Assembly: GCA_946528255.1 (NCBI GenBank) | Contig: CAMMYR010000025.1 | Location: 1-7,577, forward strand | Length of the DNA: 7,577 nucleotides | DNA from: an uncultured Methanomicrobiales archaeon | GTDB lineage: Archaea > Thermoplasmatota > Thermoplasmata > Methanomassiliicoccales > Methanomethylophilaceae | Direction: 5' to 3' | Shown here: in pieces, positions 1-7,577 of the stretch | Position numbering within the stretch: position 1 is the stretch's first letter | Layout: the number at the start of each line of letters is the position of its first letter | Notes under the pieces: generated by a model | Seen by the model: only the letters and a program-made list of their open reading frames with translations | Told to the model about the DNA's origin: nothing | Database searches by the model: none | Program-made: the position numbers and the translations under genes

Positions 1-318
1 ATCATATTGATAGGGGTCGGGACCGTCTGCACCCTGGGCTTCACCGGCGGCCCGCTGGCTCTGGACCTCCCGATGAGCGACGGCATGGGCTATGTCGGTT
101 TCCTGGATAACACGGCGACACGCATAGTGGCCCCGCTTGCGGCCATAGCCATGTGCATCTTCATCGGATACGTGGTGAAGACTGCGTACCTGGAGGAGGA
201 GATCTCCATGTCCAGTAAGTTCAGGACCAGGTACGTATTCAGGATAATGTTGAGGTATGTGGCGCCCGTCCTCCTGTCCGTCATCCTGATAACCGGGCTG
301 CTCTCGATGTTCTCACGA
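1..318 (+). CDS. NSS-family sodium-dependent transporter, C-terminal fragment
   Basis: This is the last 105 codons of a membrane transporter whose start lies outside the window. Hydrophobic segments are visible at about nt 1-55, 121-177 and 259-312. The pattern of a short Gly/Leu-rich helix, an acidic loop with FLDN, a long helix ending IFIGYVVK, a charged loop, then RYVAP followed by the last helix matches the C-terminal end of neurotransmitter:sodium symporter proteins, which import amino acids or similar solutes with sodium. The substrate cannot be told. The protein should end just after the last helix (...GLLSMFS), and the next codon is CGA at 316-318. Read as arginine, the frame runs 33 residues further to a TAG at 415-417, across the TATA box and the start of the next gene, adding a tail unlike this family. 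I end the gene at the CGA. Family call fairly sure; end depends on the CGA-stop reading. Confidence 0.75.
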
Positions 319-332
319 TCTCCGGGGAGCAG

Positions 333-340
333 TATTTATA
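333..340 (+). promoter_or_regulatory. TATA box of the ThiS-like gene
   Basis: The sequence TATTTATA is centred about 26 bases before the ATG at 363. That is the usual archaeal distance from TATA box to transcription start, so the mRNA should begin at or next to the ATG (leaderless). This argues against the in-frame TTG at 354 as the start, because it would lie upstream of the transcript. It also shows that the transporter should have ended before this point. Confidence 0.65.
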
Positions 341-362
341 CGGTGCACGGGGATTGGCAAGC

Positions 363-551
363 ATGCCGAAGATCATGGTGGGAAGCGATGTCTACGAAGT
401 GCCGGCCGGCACCATAGAGGCCGCCGTGCGCTCCGTGGGCCTGCACCCAGATTCCTACCTGTACCTCAGATCCGGGACCCCGGTCCCGATGGATACCGAG
501 ATAGGAGGCGGGGACGAGATAAAAGCCGTGAGGGTGGCTTCCGGCGGACGA
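363..551 (+). CDS. ThiS/MoaD-type ubiquitin-fold sulfur carrier or SAMP-like protein
   Basis: A 62-residue beta-grasp protein. It begins MPKIMVGSDVYEVP, has the mid-region LHPDSYLYLRSGTPVPMD, and finishes with DEIKAVRVASGG, the signature end of ThiS, MoaD and archaeal SAMP proteins. In these families the C-terminal Gly-Gly is adenylated by an E1-like enzyme and then carries sulfur (thiamine, molybdopterin or tRNA thiolation) or is joined to protein lysines; which role applies here is not visible. The start is set by a TATA box 26 bases upstream. Immediately after Gly-Gly comes CGA (549-551). Under the standard code the protein gains nine residues (RSAFAGYLH) up to TAG at 576-578, which would block Gly-Gly chemistry unless cleaved. 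With CGA as stop, Gly-Gly is the exact C-terminus. The gene is lone, leaderless and convergent with the CobQ paralogue; the two stop codons abut. Confidence 0.8.
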
Positions 552-554
552 TCG
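549..554. other. Abutting convergent CGA stop codons in a CGATCG palindrome
   Basis: The plus-strand ThiS-like gene reaches CGA at 549-551 and the minus-strand CobQ paralogue reaches CGA at 554-552, so the two expected stops sit back to back in one six-base palindrome. If each C were T the site would be TGATCA and both genes would stop with TGA. That both strands have CGA at the same expected end is seen directly; the stop function is inferred. Confidence 0.65.
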
Positions 555-1388
555 GCCTTTGCGGGCTATCTCCATTAGAGAATCGAAGTCGAATCCCGAT
601 TCGACGGCGTGGCCCACCATCTCATCGAGATTAGCTAGGAACGCGGATCTGGGGTCCTCCCCCTCCAGCTTGCCCTCGGCATAGGACAGGGAATCCTCCT
701 CGGGGAACCTGAGGAATTCGTATGGCAGTATGCCCAGGCATTTCATCCCGGTCATGGACTCCATCCTCTCTATCCCGGATTTCAGGATGCTCCTGTCCCC
801 GCGGAACCTGTTTATCACGAACCCTTTCAGCAGCGGCCTCACGTCCTCGGGGACCAGCTTCCAGGTGCCGTAGATGGCCGCGAAGACCCCGCCCCTGTCG
901 ATATCCGCTACCAGTATGGCCGGCACTCCCGCGGCCCTCATGAGCCCGGTATTGGCCACATCCCTGTCCAGGAGGTTCAGCTCCGCCGGGGATCCGGAAC
1001 CCTCGCAAACGACTATTCCGTGGGCCTTTTCGAGCCTTCCCAATGCTGACACCACATGGTCCATGACCTCCTCCCTCAGCATCGGCTTGTCCTTGGTGAC
1101 GTCCCTGCAGGGCTTCCCGCCCAATACAAGTTGTATCACGCCGTTGCCGGATGGCTTCAGCAGCACCGGGTTCATGTCCGGTGTCGCCTCCACCCCGGCG
1201 GCCCATGATTGGAACGCCTGCCCTATGCCGATCTCCCCGCCGTCGGATGTGGCGTAGGAGTTCAGGGAAAGGTTGGAGCCCTTGAACGGAACCGGGTCCA
1301 ATCCGAGCTGTGCCAGGCGCCTGCAGACCATGGCGCAGACCGTGGTCTTGCCGGCTCCGGACGATGTCCCTAAGAACAGGACCTTCAT
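552..1388 (-). CDS. CobQ-like amidoligase domain protein lacking the glutaminase domain
   Basis: A 278-residue P-loop protein of the CobQ/CobB/dethiobiotin-synthetase group. The Walker A loop is GTSSGAGKTT at residues 7-16, followed by CobQ hallmarks FKGSNLSLNS, DGGEIG.GQA and DMNPVLLKP, then CEGSGSPAE and DIDRGGVFA. It corresponds to the ATP-dependent amidoligase half of cobyric acid synthase; the glutamine-hydrolysing half is absent. The end ...FDFDSLMEIARKG matches the linker where that domain would normally follow. It may use ammonia, or the glutaminase of the neighbouring CobQ, in corrinoid amidation; the real substrate is unknown. Its ATG (1388-1386) overlaps the TGA of cobQ as ATGA, with a strong GGAGG ribosome site, so the two are translationally coupled. 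The next codon after residue 278 is CGA (554-552); read as arginine, the frame adds 72 residues to 336, wholly antisense to the ThiS-like gene and its TATA box and without family likeness. Confidence 0.8.
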
Positions 1389-3217
1389 TGCCTCCCCTCC
1401 AGTATCGCGAGGAGGCGTTCCACGTCCATGTTGTCCTCGAACACCTGGGCGAGCTTGGTGAGGTTCTCATTTATGATCGAATCGTAATCCTCCACCTCCC
1501 TCCTGTCCACGGGCTCCCCGTCGTGCTTCACGAACGACAGGAAGTACCTCCTGAAGGAGGGCTTGTCGAACACGCCGTGCATGTAGGTGCCGAAGGTCAG
1601 CTCGGATTCCCTGACGGAACCCTCGTCCTCCGGCCCTGAGACGTACCTGTTCTCGATGACGAACATGGGCTTCTCCTTCACATCGGTGATTCCCATGTGC
1701 AGTTCGTATCCTGTTACCTCCCCCTTATCCCCGACCAGCATGTGCCCCTCGTCCTGGAGGATCACCTTCTTGTACTCCCCGAAGGAGGTCTCGTTGTCGA
1801 AGAATCCCAGGGCCTCGATATCCCTGGCGACGCCCCCTTCGATGCCATTGTCGTGGAGCACCCTGCCCATCATCTGGTAGCCTCCGCAGATGCCGACTAT
1901 GGGTATCTTCTTCCACAGCTCCTTGAGCTTCGCTTCGATGCCGGTCTCCCTCATCCACAGGAAATCCGCAACGGTGTTCTTGGTGCCGGGCAGCAATACG
2001 GCGTCCACGCCGTCCAGATCCTCGGGGGATTGGGCGAACACGATGGAAACGTCCTCGAGGAAAAGCGGGTCCAGATCGGTGAAGTTGGCTATCCTGGGGA
2101 ATCTCACCACACCAATGATGGATTTCCCCTCGCCCTTCATGCGGACGCCCCTGAGGGATACGGAATCCTCGTTAGGCAGGACCACGTCCGCATGTGGCAC
2201 TATCCCTATCACGGGGATGCCCAGCATCTCCTCCAGCTTATCCGCGCCGGGGCGCATGTTCTCGGGGTTGCCCCTGACGTTGTTCAGTATGATCCCTTTG
2301 ATGCGCTTCCTGTCCTCCGGCGGTATGAGCTCAACGGTTCCTAGAGCGTAGGCGTATGCGCCGCCCCATTCGACGTTGACAACCAGGATGACATCCGCAT
2401 CGGCGATCTCCGCCGCGCGCATGTTCGCGATATCCACATCGTAGATGTTGATCTCGGCTGGGGAGCCGGCGCCCTCCATTATGACGTAATCGTAGCGGTC
2501 CTTCAGGAAGTCTATGTGCTCCCTGACGATCTCCCTGCCGGGGCCGGGCACGAATTCCGAGTAGTACCCCTCGACATCGTAGTCCGCGTAGGGCTTCCCG
2601 CAGACGATGACCTGCGATACGGTGTCCTTCTTGGGCTTCAGCAGGATGGGGTTCATGTGGTGGTCCGGGTTCTTCAGCCCGGCGGCGGTGGCCTGGAGGG
2701 TCTGGATCATCGCGATTTCCGAACCGTTCCTGGTGACCTTGGAATTCAGGCTCATGTTCTGGGATTTGAACGGGGCGACCAGCAGCCCCCTGTTGTGGAG
2801 GATCCTGCATATGGCGGCAACGGTGACCGATTTGCCCGCATCGGATGTGGCCCCGACGACCATCAATGCCCTGCCGCGCTTGTGGAACTTCGATTTGGCC
2901 TCCTCGAAGATCTGCATGAAACGGGGATCCCTGGCTTCGGTTATCCCCAGCTCCTTGGCCCTGTCCATGGTGTATTTGGCGACCTCGGTCCTGTGTATGA
3001 AGAGGCAGTCGGAGCATGCCCATACCTTGTTCCCCCTCTTGCCCGTGAGCTCGCTGCCGAAAGTGGGGCCGTTGCAGGGGTAGAAGGGGCAGTAGCAGAA
3101 TGTGCAGTCCTGGCCGGTGAAATGGCACGGGTAGTAGTCGCATGCCATGTTGCCGCCTATCCAGCCGGCCTCCAGCTCCTCGTTCACCTTCTTCTTGATG
3201 CAGTCCATCGTTACCAT
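1385..3217 (-). CDS. cobQ: Cobyric acid synthase with an N-terminal cysteine-rich domain
   Basis: A 610-residue protein. CobQ uses ATP and glutamine to amidate four side chains of adenosylcobyrinic acid a,c-diamide, giving cobyric acid (cobalamin synthesis, cytosol). Residues 1-90 hold nine cysteines (6, 26, 31, 38, 41, 43, 48, 68, 71), resembling the small cysteine-rich domain seen near or fused to archaeal cobalamin proteins; it probably binds metal. The amidoligase domain follows: P-loop GATSDAGKS at about 122-130, FKSQNMSLNS, HHMNPILLKP and MEGAGSPAEIN. The C-terminal glutaminase has GICGGYQMMG with the nucleophile Cys444, and GTYMHGVFD with His547, so the protein looks active. A typical CobQ is near 500 residues; the excess is the cysteine-rich part. 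Start: ATG 3217, with ATG 3208 three codons on also possible. The open frame continues upstream to 3754, but that lies antisense to the next gene. It ends in a true TGA (1387-1385) overlapping the next ATG. Confidence 0.9.
   Translation of the reverse strand: MVTMDCIKKKVNEELEAGWIGGNMACDYYPCHFTGQDCTFCYCPFYPCNGPTFGSELTGKRGNKVWACSDCLFIHRTEVAKYTMDRAKELGITEARDPRFMQIFEEAKSKFHKRGRALMVVGATSDAGKSVTVAAICRILHNRGLLVAPFKSQNMSLNSKVTRNGSEIAMIQTLQATAAGLKNPDHHMNPILLKPKKDTVSQVIVCGKPYADYDVEGYYSEFVPGPGREIVREHIDFLKDRYDYVIMEGAGSPAEINIYDVDIANMRAAEIADADVILVVNVEWGGAYAYALGTVELIPPEDRKRIKGIILNNVRGNPENMRPGADKLEEMLGIPVIGIVPHADVVLPNEDSVSLRGVRMKGEGKSIIGVVRFPRIANFTDLDPLFLEDVSIVFAQSPEDLDGVDAVLLPGTKNTVADFLWMRETGIEAKLKELWKKIPIVGICGGYQMMGRVLHDNGIEGGVARDIEALGFFDNETSFGEYKKVILQDEGHMLVGDKGEVTGYELHMGITDVKEKPMFVIENRYVSGPEDEGSVRESELTFGTYMHGVFDKPSFRRYFLSFVKHDGEPVDRREVEDYDSIINENLTKLAQVFEDNMDVERLLAILEGRQ
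1391..1400 (-). promoter_or_regulatory. Strong ribosome binding site of the CobQ paralogue
   Basis: On the minus strand GGAGGGGAGG lies two bases before the ATG at 1388, inside the last codons of cobQ. It fixes the start of the downstream gene and supports translational coupling through the ATGA overlap. Confidence 0.65.
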
Positions 3218-3236
3218 GGATGGATGGGTGTTCCGA

Positions 3237-3246
3237 TAGATAATAC
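3237..3246 (-). promoter_or_regulatory. Possible TATA element of the cobQ operon
   Basis: On the minus strand GTATTATCTA is centred about 25 bases before the ATG at 3217, compatible with a leaderless start; no ribosome site precedes that ATG. The match is weak. The alternative is the minus-strand reading of the element at 3282-3291 (GATATAAAGG), which would give a leader of about 40 bases. Confidence 0.3.
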
Positions 3247-3281
3247 AGGCGGAATCCACTTTCGGGCACCCCCCTGATTCC

Positions 3282-3289
3282 TTTATATC
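3282..3289 (+). promoter_or_regulatory. TATA box of the YhaO/YhaN-like operon
   Basis: TTTATATC is centred about 26 bases before the ATG at 3312, so the transcript should start at the ATG itself (leaderless). The element lies in the 94-base divergent region between this operon and cobQ; being nearly symmetric, it could in principle serve both directions. Confidence 0.65.
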
Positions 3290-3311
3290 GGGGGCGGTCG
3301 TCGTATCGGTT

Positions 3312-4448
3312 ATGGGAAGCACTTTCAGGTTCATCCACTGCGCGGACCTCCATCTCGGGTCCGCCGTGCACTGCCCCGGGCAGGAGGAGGCGATCTGGAT
3401 ATCGCTGAGGAAGCTTATCGACCAGGCCATGGCCAACAGGGCCGATGCAATGTTCATAGCCGGCGACCTGTACGATTCGTCAACCCAGTCTCCAGCTACG
3501 AGGCACAGGCTGGTCACGGAGCTGTCCAGATTCAAAGGCAGGGTGTTCATAGCCAGGGGGAACCACGACAGCGGCGCCACCTGGGATTCGTCCATACCAT
3601 ATCCGGAGAACGTCCACGAGTTCCCCCCGGAGCCGGAATCGGTGATCGTGGACACCCCCGGGGGCCAGTTCGAGGCCGTCGGGATAAGCTTCGGATCGAG
3701 GCTGGAATCCCGCAGCCTGCCCAACATGCTCAAAGGCCGCGGGGACATGTTCACCGTGGCCTGCGTCCACGGGGACAGCTCCGGCGACGGCGCGTATTCA
3801 CCGTTCGACCCAAGATCCCTTTCCGGGAAGGGCGTGGACTATTGGGCCCTGGGCCACATACATGCCAGGCAGGTCATTTCGGAGTCGCCGTACATGGTCT
3901 ACCCCGGGAACATCCAGGGCAGGGATATGGGGGAGACCGGCGAGAAGGGCGCGTATCTCGTCACAGTGACGGAAGGCAGGGTCTCCGAATGCCGCTTCAT
4001 CCCCACCCAGTCGTTCTGCTTCAGGGAGCTGACGGCTGACATAACATCCTCGGATCTGCGGACGGCGGTATCAGTGCTGAGGGGGCAATGCCGCAGGGGC
4101 GATTGCCTGAGGATCACGTTCAGGGGCTCCGGGGTCATGGATGCCATGCTCAGGAAGGAGCCAGAAGCAGTCAGGAAGTCCATAGAATCGGATCTCGGAT
4201 GCACCGTTTCGGAGATCAGGGTTATGACGCGCCCCGATTCCCCTCCGGGTCCGATCACCGAGGCAGTGGAGGCCAGGGGAAGGGCGCTGGCAGATGCCCC
4301 CCGCGAAGAGGTGATGGGCATCCTGATGTCCAAGACACTGATGAAGAACTACAGGACCTACTTCGAATCCATGAGCGATGAGGAGTTCCGCGACCTGGTG
4401 GATAGATCAACCCGTCTTGCTGCATCCGCGATGGAGGGGAGCAGATGA
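3312..4448 (+). CDS. YhaO/Mre11/SbcD-like DNA-repair metallophosphoesterase
   Basis: A 378-residue calcineurin-like phosphoesterase of the Mre11/SbcD exonuclease group, closest in style to bacterial YhaO. All metal-binding motifs are present: D12-L-H14 in CADLHLG, GDLYD at 51-55, RGNHD at 82-86, H153 in CVHGD, and GHIH at 181-184. The stretch YPGNIQGRDMGETGEKG at 197-213 is typical of YhaO. The expected role is manganese-dependent nuclease action on DNA ends together with the ATPase encoded next; the exact substrate is not known. The start is fixed by the TATA box 26 bases upstream. The gene ends in an ordinary TGA (4446-4448) within an ATGA overlap with the ATPase gene, so the pair is coupled and probably made in fixed ratio. 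About 35 arginine codons were read, mostly AGG, none CGA. Confidence 0.9.
   Translation: MGSTFRFIHCADLHLGSAVHCPGQEEAIWISLRKLIDQAMANRADAMFIAGDLYDSSTQSPATRHRLVTELSRFKGRVFIARGNHDSGATWDSSIPYPENVHEFPPEPESVIVDTPGGQFEAVGISFGSRLESRSLPNMLKGRGDMFTVACVHGDSSGDGAYSPFDPRSLSGKGVDYWALGHIHARQVISESPYMVYPGNIQGRDMGETGEKGAYLVTVTEGRVSECRFIPTQSFCFRELTADITSSDLRTAVSVLRGQCRRGDCLRITFRGSGVMDAMLRKEPEAVRKSIESDLGCTVSEIRVMTRPDSPPGPITEAVEARGRALADAPREEVMGILMSKTLMKNYRTYFESMSDEEFRDLVDRSTRLAASAMEGSR
4433..4439 (+). promoter_or_regulatory. Ribosome binding site of the YhaN-like gene
   Basis: GGAGGGG lies five bases before the ATG at 4445, inside the last codons of the nuclease gene. It supports the start at 4445 and coupled translation. 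Confidence 0.6.
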
Positions 4449-6490
4449 GGATCCGCAGCATCAGGATCTCTTCCTTCGGTGGCATCCGCGACAGGCAGCT
4501 GGATGCGGATGAGGGGATGACCGTGGTCCACGGCCCCAACGAGAGCGGCAAGACCACCTTCATGGAGGCCATCAGGAACTCCCTCAGACCCACAGGTGCC
4601 AGGAAGACCTATCCGGCTAAGGATTCGACCGATTCATACGAGGTCGGCTACGAGGAATCCGGAACCGAATCCGCGGCCGGTGTGAAAGGCAAAACCAACA
4701 CGGGGAAGATCCCCCGGTGCATGTCCGGAATCTCCCCCGATCTCTACCGCAAGGTGTTCGCCATGGGCGCCGGCGATCTGGATGATGACGAGATGATGAG
4801 GTCGGGCGAGATATCTTCGAAGCTCCTGAGCATCCCGGGAGGGGAAGCGATACCCCTGGCCGAGGAGGAGCTGGAAGGGATATTCTCCAAGCAGGTCGGC
4901 GAGCGCGCCAATTCCCAATCCGTCCTCGTCCGGCTGACCAACGAATCCAACGGCCTCGAGGAGAAGCTGAAGGAAGCCAGGGAGATGGAATCGAGGTACG
5001 GCGAACTGGTATCGGAGAAGGCGGATCTAGAGGCGGAGATGAAAGAGTCCAGGGCATCCAGCGGGGCTTTGGAAGAGGCGCGCAGGATATGGAATCTGTA
5101 TCAGGCCAATGCCGGGAACTACGGGAGGCTCTCCGAACTCCGCAGTCAGCGGGACGCGATAGGAATGTTCACCGAGGTCACCGCAGAGGACGAGAAAACC
5201 AGGGCAAGTATGATACAGGATGCGACGGTAGCCAGGACCAGATGCAATTCTCAATCTTCGATGGGCTACCCGGAAGGGGCCGATCCCAGAAAGGTCGAGG
5301 CGGAGATACGCGAGATAAGGTCCATCGTGGACGGCTACGATTCGTACATAGCCGCGAAGAGCGCCCCGCCTGCCAAACCCGCCAAAGGCATCAGCACCCT
5401 GCTTATCGCCGGAGCCTTCATGGCGGTGCTGGGCGCCGCAGGGTGCATATTCACGATCTATTCCGCGGCATTGATAGTCGTGGGCGCGGCAGTCGCAGTA
5501 TTCGGGCTGCGCAAACCCGCAGCCGCACCGCAGCCGGTAAGCCACACTGGTGTGACAGCCTACGAGTCCAAGGTGCGCGATACGATGATCAGGATAGGCT
5601 GCCGCCCCGCGGGCACCGAGGGGGATGTCAGGACGCTCCGCCTGATAGATGCGGCGTACGGGACGCATGCCGCGGTCCAGAGGGACATGGAGACCTCCCG
5701 CGCCCAGCTGGAGGCCGCAGAAGCCAGGCTCGAGGGCTTCTACGCCAGATTCGGCGGCGAGGAGGGATACAACGCCAATCTGAGGAAGACCCGCGACGCT
5801 GCAAGGATAGACGGGCAGATCAGGACTCTTTCCGAATCGCTCCGCAACAGCGGTCTGGATCCAGGTAATCCAGTGTGCCCCGTATCCGAGCCTCCTGCGG
5901 AGGATCCGGCAAAGAACGAGATACCGATGCGCATCGGGCAGCTGGATGCCGAGATACAGGCGATCCTCCGTTCCGGGGATTCGGAAAAGTTGACCGCCAG
6001 GCTGGCGGAGAACGAGGATGCCCGCAAGGCGGCCGTGCTACGCGGAGCCGAGGCTCTCCTGGCCTCCAGGATACTGGACGATGCATGCTCCGAGGTATTC
6101 GAAAAGAACCATCCCCGTGTATTCTCCGATGCGGACACGTTCCTCGCGGAGATGACCGGCGGCAGGTACAGGGTCGTATCCGACCCCAGGGAGAAGGACC
6201 CGCTCCGCGTTATCGGAGACGGCGCATCCAAAACCCTGCAGCAGTGCAGCTCCGGACTGAGGGCCCAGGTCCTCCTGTCCCTCAAGCTGGCTGTCGCGAT
6301 GGAGCTCGGCAAGGGCGACATCCCCATGATCCTGGACGATGTCCTGCTCACCTTCGACACCGAGAGGAAGGCCGGCGCCGTCAGGGCGCTGAAGAAAGCA
6401 TCCGAGGGGATGCAGATACTGATGTTCACCTGCGACGACCAGACCGCTATGTTCTGCAGGGATGCTGGAGTGGAAGTGCGCAAGCTACGA
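4445..6490 (+). CDS. YhaN/Rad50/SbcC-like ATPase with central membrane hairpin
   Basis: A 681-residue SMC-like ATPase, partner of the preceding nuclease. The N-terminus starts the ATPase head (MRIRSIRISSFGGI) with Walker A GPNESGKTT at 30-38. Charged stretches likely to form a coiled coil occupy roughly 155-310, then two hydrophobic helices separated by a short turn at about 315-356, then more coil. The signature motif (CSSGLRAQ, Ser602-Ser603-Gly604) and Walker B (MILDDVLLTFD, 628-638) rebuild the head. As in bacterial YhaN, the hydrophobic hairpin sits where Rad50 has its zinc hook, and no CxxC hook is seen, so the complex is probably membrane-attached. Bacterial YhaN is usually longer. The protein should end after QILMFTCDD...VEVRKL, and the next codon is CGA (6488-6490). 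Read as arginine, the frame fuses with the next gene and runs to a TAA at 6935-6937 (830 residues). I treat that fusion as false. Confidence 0.85.
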
Positions 6491-6514
6491 ATAGCCGAAT
6501 GCGGATGCGCATGC

Positions 6515-6847
6515 ATGCCTTCCACTGTAAAGGTGTGCATGCGCGTCTGCGACAAGACCTGCAGGATAACCGCCGACTGTTCCGACGGTGGTCTGGCGAT
6601 CCATATGGAATCCGATTGCACCAAGCTTCAGCAGTTCGGTGAGGCCCTGTCCGAAGGGGTTTCCATGGATGATATCCTGGACGTGTACTCAAGCAGGATC
6701 ATGTCCCCTGAGGTCAGGAAGAACGTATGCTTCGAGTGCCTGGCCGTCCCAGCGGTCTTCAATGCCTGCTGGCTGGAGACCGGGATGATATCCAAGGGAC
6801 TGTCCAAGAGATCCGGGTCCAACTCCATAGAGTTCGACGAGCTCCGA
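6515..6847 (+). CDS. Small cysteine-rich protein, DUF6951-like
   Basis: A 110-residue protein with eight cysteines (8, 12, 16, 22, 35, 72, 75, 85). Its layout, a Val-rich start with Cys, a central ESDC followed by LQ.FGE.L, then ECLAVPAVFNACWLETGM and a closing SNSIEF, fits a small methanogen/clostridial family that I know from memory as DUF6951; the function is unknown and the name should be checked. Cysteine spacing suggests metal or cofactor binding. It starts at ATG 6515, 24 bases after the CGA ending the YhaN-like gene and in the same frame, with no clear ribosome site, so it may depend on re-initiation. Family members end just after the IEF strand; here ...IEFDEL is followed by CGA (6845-6847). 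Read as arginine, the frame adds 30 residues across the AT-richer intergenic region to TAA at 6935-6937. Under the standard code this would be the C-terminal part of an 830-residue fusion. Confidence 0.6.
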
Positions 6848-6965
6848 CATCGGATATCCCGAATCCATACCAATATCAATCCTCGTTGTCGTTTTATCCA
6901 GATTTGTCCATTGACATTGTCTCAAATCGAACATTAAAATACCTTGTCGAACATACATTCCAAAC
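6848..6965. other. AT-richer intergenic region
   Basis: This 118-base stretch between the small cysteine-rich gene and the ACT-domain gene is clearly richer in A and T than the surrounding genes. It holds a short T-run (GTTTTATCC near 6891-6899) that could help end transcription, the TATA box of the next gene and two of the three TCGAACA repeats. Its composition argues that it is not coding, although a standard-code frame crosses most of it. Confidence 0.6.
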
Positions 6966-6976
6966 ATGTCGAACAG
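6927..6976 (+). repeat. Three TCGAACA repeats around the ACT-domain gene start
   Basis: TCGAACAT occurs at 6927-6934 and 6947-6954, and TCGAACAG at 6969-6976 just inside the coding region, at spacings of 20 and 22 bases, about two helical turns. They flank the TATA box and could be operator half-sites. That function is inference; the repeats are seen directly. Confidence 0.4.
6934..6941 (+). promoter_or_regulatory. TATA box of the ACT-domain gene
   Basis: TTAAAATA is centred about 28 bases before the ATG at 6966, which predicts a transcript with little or no leader. It overlaps the end of the first TCGAACAT repeat by one base. Confidence 0.55.
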
Positions 6977-7577
6977 CACGCAGAAGGAGAGCCTCGCCGA
7001 GAAGACGAGGGTCTACATAGACTCGCACCCGAGCATCAAGGATTGCGTTTCGAAGGGCCTCATCAACTACTCGTCGCTCTCCAGGCTGATCATGAAGGAC
7101 ATGGGCCTGACCAACGAGGAGGCCGTCATGATCGCGTGCAGGCGCTACGCATCCAAGCTCGGGACCACTTCCGAGCACGAGATGAACATTCTCAGGATCC
7201 TGAAGGACAGCAGGCTGGAGATGAGGACCAAGACCTGCATCGTCACCGCCAAGAACGACTGGTCCGTGCTCCACAAGATGGACAACCTCTTCAAGGACCT
7301 GTGGAACGAGAACTCCATCATGCAGTGCGTCCAGTCAGCTTCCGCCGTCACCATCATCGCAGACAGGATGCTGAAGGACAGGATCATCGACACCGTCGGC
7401 AGGTTCAACCTCATCAAGGTCAGGGAGAACCTGGTGGAGATCGCCGTCAAGTCCCCGGAGATGATCGTGGATACCAGCGGTGTGATCGCATACCTGATCA
7501 CCAACCTCTCCGATGCCGGCATCAACATCGAGGAGACCGTCAGCTGCCACACGGACACCATCTTCATCGTTGGCGAA
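6966..7577 (+). CDS. ACT-domain protein, putative regulator (3' end beyond the window)
   Basis: The first 204 codons of a gene that is still open at the window edge. After a polar start (MSNSTQKESLAEKTR), residues 15-60 (VYIDSHPSIKDCVSKG, INYSSLSRLI) look like the helical N-terminal segment of a widespread archaeal family of about 220 residues. The last 50 residues (LVEIAVKSPE, DTSGVIAYLI, LSDAGINIEE, TDTIFIVGE) form an ACT-like ligand-binding fold. ACT domains usually sense amino acids or other small molecules, so a regulatory role is likely, but the ligand and target are unknown. It has its own TATA box and repeat elements, so it is transcribed separately. Its eleven arginine codons include no CGA. 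Only a few residues should be missing; what codon ends it would be informative. Confidence 0.75.
   Translation, partial: MSNSTQKESLAEKTRVYIDSHPSIKDCVSKGLINYSSLSRLIMKDMGLTNEEAVMIACRRYASKLGTTSEHEMNILRILKDSRLEMRTKTCIVTAKNDWSVLHKMDNLFKDLWNENSIMQCVQSASAVTIIADRMLKDRIIDTVGRFNLIKVRENLVEIAVKSPEMIVDTSGVIAYLITNLSDAGINIEETVSCHTDTIFIVGE

Follow-up and report, generated by a model that had tools for sequence, protein, structure and literature searches.

CGA likely ends translation in an archaeon of the Methanomethylophilaceae, alongside TGA and TAA

The stretch analysed here, hereafter the window, comprises 7,577 nucleotides of an uncultured archaeon of the Methanomethylophilaceae (assembly GCA_946528255.1, contig CAMMYR010000025.1, positions 1–7,577, forward strand). 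In this organism the arginine codon CGA occupies the ends of genes that in relatives close with TGA, and it does not occur within genes; it is therefore likely to act as a translation stop, most probably through recognition by the release factor aRF1. Specifically, CGA is the final codon at all five gene ends that do not overlap a following start codon (316–318, 549–551, 6488–6490 and 6845–6847 on the plus strand, and 554–552 on the minus strand), and the only ordinary stops are the TGA codons within two ATGA junctions (1385–1388, minus strand; 4445–4448, plus strand). The eight gene bodies contain 2,427 codons, 166 of them for arginine (CGC 40, CGG 4, CGT 4, AGA 12, AGG 106), and CGA, TAA, TAG and TGA are each absent in frame. 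A preliminary description of this DNA had reported the five CGA ends, the two TGA junctions and the lack of CGA among the 166 arginine codons, offering reassignment, mRNA editing or a data artefact as explanations; the observation is confirmed and is larger than first described, and reassignment, the best fit among the three, is supported. Two features, the recurrence of CGA stops in several lineages and a fixed in-frame CGA in the aRF1 gene, were not foreseen there.

Relatives were collected by a contig scan, yielding metagenome-assembled genomes (MAGs) from different studies labelled Methanomethylophilaceae, Methanomassiliicoccaceae or Thermoplasmata archaeon, which are denoted here by G numbers, with individual loci denoted by L numbers; G004 is the genome closest to the window. 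Two window genes, encoding a SAMP2-like and a CobQ-like protein, allow direct comparison of ends. CGA occupies both aligned ends in G004, G006, G007, G009 and G074 and the CobQ-like end in G078, where the SAMP2-like gene was not found, while in G010 and L021 the CobQ-like gene ends in CGA and the SAMP2-like gene in TGA; most other relatives carry TGA or TAA at these positions. The SAMP2-like CGAs lie at an offset of 0 from the alignment and the CobQ-like CGAs within three codons of it. The end places predicted earlier from family comparison thus prove right where comparable, with relatives of both genes ending in TGA or TAA at the place or a few codons away. Where the two genes converge, their abutting stops form the palindrome CGATCG in the window, G006, G007, G009 and G074, and often TGATCA in standard relatives. 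Around the tRNA-Arg(UCG) locus, ends that are TGA in G005 are CGA, at offset 0, in G006, G007 or G075. Even the near-identical pair G078 and G080 differs, with CGA versus TGA at two ends, and the pair shares two further open reading frame (ORF) ends called at CGA, for which no outside relative was compared. In the distant G081, CGA lies near the CobQ-like end, five codons ahead of a TGA, and this genome is not counted as a user. Chance is an unlikely source of this pattern because independent assemblies carry CGA at orthologous ends.

Beyond these orthologues, an end profile scores every in-frame codon with upstream coding signal and records how large a fraction loses that signal further downstream. 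Over the 500 kb of G004 analysed, the signal collapses after 154 of 162 CGAs, 158 of 172 TGAs, 21 of 27 TAAs and 18 of 60 TAGs, against a baseline of about 0.10 for sense codons and 52/182 for CGG. Comparable values are obtained in G006 (CGA 58/66, TGA 140/157), G009 (CGA 35/39, TGA 107/114) and G007 (CGA 10/10, TGA 18/21), all four genomes having a GC content of 57–60 percent. The model was trained with CGA as a stop, and training with standard stops on smaller sets agrees (CGA 47/50, 54/62 and 31/37). G003 holds three CGAs in 400 kb, all at signal drops and hence candidate ends, and no CGA was found by the profile in 43 kb of G005. The expectation that CGA would be scarce inside genes and enriched at ends beyond the window holds in G004, G006 and G009, with the qualification that TGA and TAA share the role; because the split in G004 is about half and half, the five out of five seen in the window overstates the CGA share.

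Three further tests were run after dropping secondary CGAs lying less than 120 bases downstream of another, which reduces the sets from 154 to 141 in G004, from 58 to 50 in G006 and from 35 to 31 in G009. Both CGA and TGA occur on nearly all loci with at least five ends (24/24 in G004, 15/17 in G006, 11/14 in G009), and their shares are homogeneous across loci (p = 0.10, 0.48 and 0.63, respectively); a mixed bin is rejected on the strength of this co-occurrence. The median distance to the next TGA or TAA is similar after CGA and after TGA, at 43 versus 41 codons in G004, 27.5 versus 25.5 in G006 and 40 versus 41 in G009. CGA ends are mostly preceded by G or C and favour T at the following base (+4), found after 16 of 28 CGAs versus 7 of 73 TGAs in G006 (p = 1.7e-6) and after 35 of 97 versus 22 of 100 in G004 (p = 0.04).

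The same profile marks TAG as mostly sense-like, with 18 of 60 at ends in G004, in keeping with the presence of PylS, found in 10 of 10 genomes searched. Read-through TAG is often aligned to Tyr (4/5 in G004, 6/8 in G009), and with PylS present, pyrrolysine may replace Tyr at some of these sites.

Inside genes, CGA is close to absent. Counts were made in well-aligned columns, with a GC-frame filter and stricter columns, over the fetched part of each genome, and give 0 of 15,774 in G004, 1 of 12,706 in G006, 0 of 6,632 in G009 and 1 of 4,764 in G002; in G003, one of 468 conserved arginine codons is CGA. With G004 genes as the reference, the interior CGAs of G003, G009, G007, G002, G077 and G078 reduce to a single codon shared by all, located in the aRF1 gene, and G006 carries this codon plus one in cobQ. 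An interior CGA in G008 was set aside, as it lies antisense to a better-scoring frame.

To our knowledge, tRNA-Arg(UCG) is the only archaeal tRNA expected to read CGA. A covariance-model search of G004 yields 43 tRNAs, including Arg CCG, CCU, GCG and UCU, and UCG was not found among them. The clade considered here is the 30-row tree branch holding the window, joined by G073 and G075 on account of their tRNAs. In the rest of this clade, the anticodon arm of tRNA-Arg(UCG) is altered in 24 of the 24 tRNAs read, versus none of 25 in the outgroup: 19 carry a 31–39 mismatch and 5 carry C33 in place of U33. Outgroup tRNAs show a 27–43 mismatch in 4 of 25, one of these also at 28–42. The C33 form occurs at L342–L345 and L348 and, by pattern, also in G002, G067 and G068. 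A 25th clade stretch read, that of G066, contained no such tRNA, and a pattern search did not recognise one in G001, G066 or G077. Both U33, which is near-universal, and a paired 31–39 matter for decoding. The loss of tRNA-Arg(UCG) anticipated by the preliminary description is apparent in G004, where the tRNA goes undetected, but not in other CGA users, where it is present.

The aRF1 gene itself carries the codon that the interiors of the other aligned genes almost entirely lack. Of the 27 clade genomes in which the aRF1 sequence spans the site, two of them (G069 and G072) through fragments, 26 show exactly one CGA in the part of the gene seen, at the Arg of the motif A[AS]-R-LKT[FY]K, codon 78 or, in some predicted starts, codon 61; examples are L088 (G003), L087 (G006) and L181 (G078). 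The exception is G004, which reads GCC CGC CTC at this site and whose aRF1 gene itself ends in CGA. The site lies outside the G001 fragment, and G010, G011 and G075 yielded no full-length aRF1. The surrounding context is likewise conserved as [GT]CT-CGA-CT, the preceding codon ending in T and the next base being C in 25 of 25 seen (U-CGA-C). Across four-fold columns of aRF1, 11 percent of third bases are T and 6 of 115 columns are invariant; the CGA and its preceding codon are among these six, though the latter alternates between Ala and Ser. Invariant synonymous codons elsewhere in the gene are those of the Ser preceding NIKS, a Val, a Gly (GGA) and an Arg (CGT). Real CGA ends differ from the U-CGA-C context of aRF1 in mostly following G or C and in favouring T at the next base. 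Outside the clade, among 21 aRF1 genes read (G008 included), the site is CGA in three, with other preceding bases, and CGA occurs at varied places. Past the CGA, frame 0 continues with conserved residues, and no +1 frameshift is seen at the site.

Taken together with the near-absence of CGA elsewhere, this arrangement suggests that aRF1 is probably self-regulating through its in-frame CGA. A different account of this one codon, in which a slow codon times folding of the N-domain or an RNA or DNA element is conserved in place of a self-regulating stop, is possible but the less likely of the two. In its favour, the flanking bases are fixed along with the codon; however, the codon is nearly the sole interior CGA in the aligned genes of CGA-ending species, lies in the gene of the very factor that reads stops, and is absent from G004, which likewise has no detected tRNA-Arg(UCG).

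Self-regulation by aRF1 would fit a stepwise path. Genes would first have been emptied of CGA; aRF1 would then have gained termination at CGA, with a weakened tRNA-Arg(UCG) still inserting Arg now and then. The single CGA in the aRF1 mRNA could now act as a sensor, abundant aRF1 stopping at codon 78 (61 in some starts) and scarce aRF1 allowing Arg insertion and a full-length product. Once CGA had no other use, several lineages could tolerate the replacement of TGA by CGA at the ends of genes, and finally the lineage of the window and G004 would have lost both sensor codon and tRNA, leaving CGA as a full stop beside TGA and TAA. That this path is visible in the relatives, with competition between tRNA and aRF1 at the sole aRF1 CGA setting the level of the factor, and with switch and tRNA gone in the window lineage, is a reading we favour with some reserve.

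A quick tree of two proteins and 42 rows places the window with G004; G006, G007, G009 and G074 in a group that includes the non-user G005; G010, G011 and G078 beside G080; and L021 apart. G011 and L021 are scored as users on two ends each. G080 counts as a non-user on the basis of its CobQ-like end, but the ORF ends it shares with G078 suggest that it too has CGA ends. The user state needs six changes on this tree, which does not fix the number of origins, and a repeated gain of CGA stops appears likely.

Several observations weigh against reading CGA as a stop recognised by aRF1, or narrow its reach. The preliminary description had proposed inspecting aRF1 near NIKS or the YxCxxxF region, and a search for substitutions common to CGA users found none, there or elsewhere in the protein; the aRF1 step thus rests on inference, as no change in the factor marks the users. 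NIRS in place of NIKS in G006 (L087) was dropped as a marker, being present also in G069 (L309), whose 20 kb examined showed no CGA end. The CGA-ending genomes G006, G007, G009, G074 and G075 retain tRNA-Arg(UCG), and because the aRF1 CGA lies at a conserved Arg it must sometimes be decoded as Arg; beyond G004, CGA is thus not exclusively a stop. The description of the altered tRNA as weak is itself open to objection, since the available text of PMC13092985 argues that 4-bp anticodon stems in bacteria widen reading. The tRNA list of G004, itself a MAG, also lacks Tyr and Pro(GGG), which makes the absence of UCG strong but not final. Signs of the last step come from G004 only, and the tRNA and aRF1 evidence comes from relatives and not from the window. 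The cobQ CGA of G006 lies at a conserved Gln (GGYQMMG; L010, position 11333), and that of G002 falls in gappy alignment; interior CGA is also near-absent in TGA-ending relatives such as G003, so interior absence alone is weak and the ends carry the argument. In G009, +4 T is not enriched after CGA (p = 0.62), and the next stop lies within 10 codons in 0.29 of cases after CGA versus 0.19 after TGA.

The strongest competitor for the ends themselves holds that CGA is unassigned, so that a ribosome stalled there would be released by rescue, for example by aPelota with ABCE1, rather than by aRF1. It would account naturally both for a G004 in which tRNA-Arg(UCG) is not found and for the lack of an aRF1 change common to users, yet it is improbable. 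CGA ends occur also where tRNA-Arg(UCG) is present, and a pure unassigned-codon account fails in the five tRNA-retaining genomes for this reason. The preference for T at +4, clear in G006, weak in G004 and not seen in G009, resembles a termination context; the use of CGA at about half of G004 ends suggests efficient ending; and the fixed CGA within its own gene implicates aRF1. Recognition by aRF1 is favoured over stalling because of this fixed codon and the +4 T preference.

C-to-U editing of mRNA, creating UGA from CGA as in plant organelles, is very improbable. In its favour, the same sites alternate between TGA and CGA, and G004 has 12 GCGA and 4 CCGA junctions in 4-nt-overlap frames; in all 16, however, an in-frame ATG or GTG follows 1 to 11 codons later, and an edited start is not required. 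Where the T of the stop is also part of the next start codon, ATGA is not replaced by ACGA (27 versus 0 in G004, 19 versus 1 in G006), although free ends in G004 number 105 TGA and 111 CGA. Editing would also convert Gln codons to UAA or UAG, yet the profile does not mark these codons as ends in G004 (CAG 53/698; CAA 25/94, similar to the rare CGG at 52/182), and ACG stands at 0 of 31 aligned starts in G004 and 2 of 27 in G006. Editing is disfavoured because ACGA does not take the place of ATGA and because it offers no reason for tRNA-Arg(UCG) to be altered or lost. Least probable of all is that CGA still encodes Arg in longer proteins, as the tRNA-Arg(UCG) of some users might allow, or that the assemblies are in error: independent MAGs agree and both codons occur on the same contigs, the coding signal collapses past CGA, and the extensions would run antisense into a convergent neighbour (CobQ-like) or across the next gene (Rad50-like).

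The window genes were named from Pfam and NCBIfam profiles, several under curated cut-offs. The plus strand opens with the 3′ part of an SNF-type (sodium:neurotransmitter symporter family) transporter gene (1–318; PF00209, E 1.6e-05, under cut-off), whose CGA stop at 316–318 is called from codon counts. It is followed by the SAMP2-like gene for a ubiquitin-like small modifier (363–551; PF21965, E 1.4e-4, under cut-off, and orthologue ends), whose aligned end at 549–551 is TGA or TAA in standard relatives and CGA in G004, G006, G007, G009 and G074. On the minus strand, the CobQ-like gene (552–1388; NF001989, 299 bits; PF01656) ends in CGA at 552–554, directly abutting the stop of its convergent neighbour within CGATCG. 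Its start ATG overlaps the TGA of cobQ in the ATGA at 1385–1388; cobQ itself (cobyric acid synthase, 1385–3217, minus strand; NF001989, 520 bits; PF04071) carries an N-terminal Cys-rich domain. Under the standard code the CobQ-like protein would extend from 278 to 350 residues, an addition of 72.

On the plus strand, an Mre11/SbcD-like nuclease gene (3312–4448; PF00149 above cut-off, TIGR00619 under cut-off) overlaps, through the ATGA at 4445–4448, the start of a Rad50/SMC-like ATPase gene (4445–6490; PF13476; NF003034 under cut-off), the Mre11-like gene supplying the TGA and the Rad50-like gene the ATG. The Rad50-like gene ends in CGA at 6488–6490, where the aligned G004 end is TAA. The DUF6951 gene (6515–6847; PF22263, E 4.5e-12) lies in the same frame and ends in CGA at 6845–6847, the aligned G004 end being CGA directly followed by TGA. 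Across 6488–6847 the sole separator of these two genes is CGA; gene finders would fuse them, and under the standard code they form one frame running to 6937. A DUF7523/ACT-domain gene (6966–7577, plus strand) runs off the window end and contains no CGA in 204 codons. An Rfam search of the window returned no match.

Sense codons have become stops in vertebrate mitochondria, which use AGA and AGG in this way. Similarly, UCA and UCG have undergone sense-to-stop reassignment in mitochondria of the Sphaeropleales, and the available text of PMC6821328 correlates reassignment in algal mitochondria with changes in mtRF1a. The present case resembles the mitochondrial ones, as far as the text of that source extends, in that the codon is absent inside genes and placed at gene ends, the tRNA, missing there, goes undetected here in G004, and ordinary stops operate in parallel; it differs in involving an archaeal cellular genome of about 2 Mb, another codon and a release factor in which no telling mutation was found. 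Arginine codons have also been reassigned in bacteria, where the Codetta survey describes AGG, CGA and CGG, by a method that cannot detect new stop codons according to the available text of PMC8629427. As in those cases CGA and/or CGG turn rare, and tRNA(UCG) is missing in three Firmicute CGG cases; there, however, within the same text, the changes are sense-to-sense and the CGA and CGG ones occur at low GC, whereas here the change is sense-to-stop at 57–60 percent GC. For the putative aRF1 switch the nearest likeness is bacterial RF2, autoregulated by an in-frame UGA in prfB (available text of PMC13245932 and PMC5289835). Each gene has a single in-frame codon expected to be read as a stop by the factor it encodes, with C as the next base, a weak termination context; unlike prfB, the codon is CGA and not UGA, the frame continues with Arg without a frameshift and the factor is archaeal. 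Methanomassiliicoccales also use TAG as sense in the pyrrolysine code (available text of PMC4153887). The genomes studied here probably belong to that order and show PylS and mostly sense TAG; within the same genomes TAG has passed from stop to sense and CGA, in all likelihood, from sense to stop.

Neither a sense-to-stop change in a cellular genome nor the use of CGA stops in archaea was found described in the open-access literature searched, which excludes preprints and most subscription journals; reports of sense-to-stop changes were found only for mitochondria. One practical consequence is that database proteins of these methanogenic gut archaea overrun CGA into neighbouring genes. Among the 120 database matches listed for the CobQ-like protein, the seven closest (window included) measure 334–386 amino acids and the remainder 275–281, bar two (310 and 343). 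Within the clade, stages before, during and after codon capture seem to coexist, so that the old dispute over whether tRNA loss or the release factor comes first becomes testable. If this holds, a sense codon has become a stop in a cellular organism, and the path by which this happened would still be visible in that organism's relatives.

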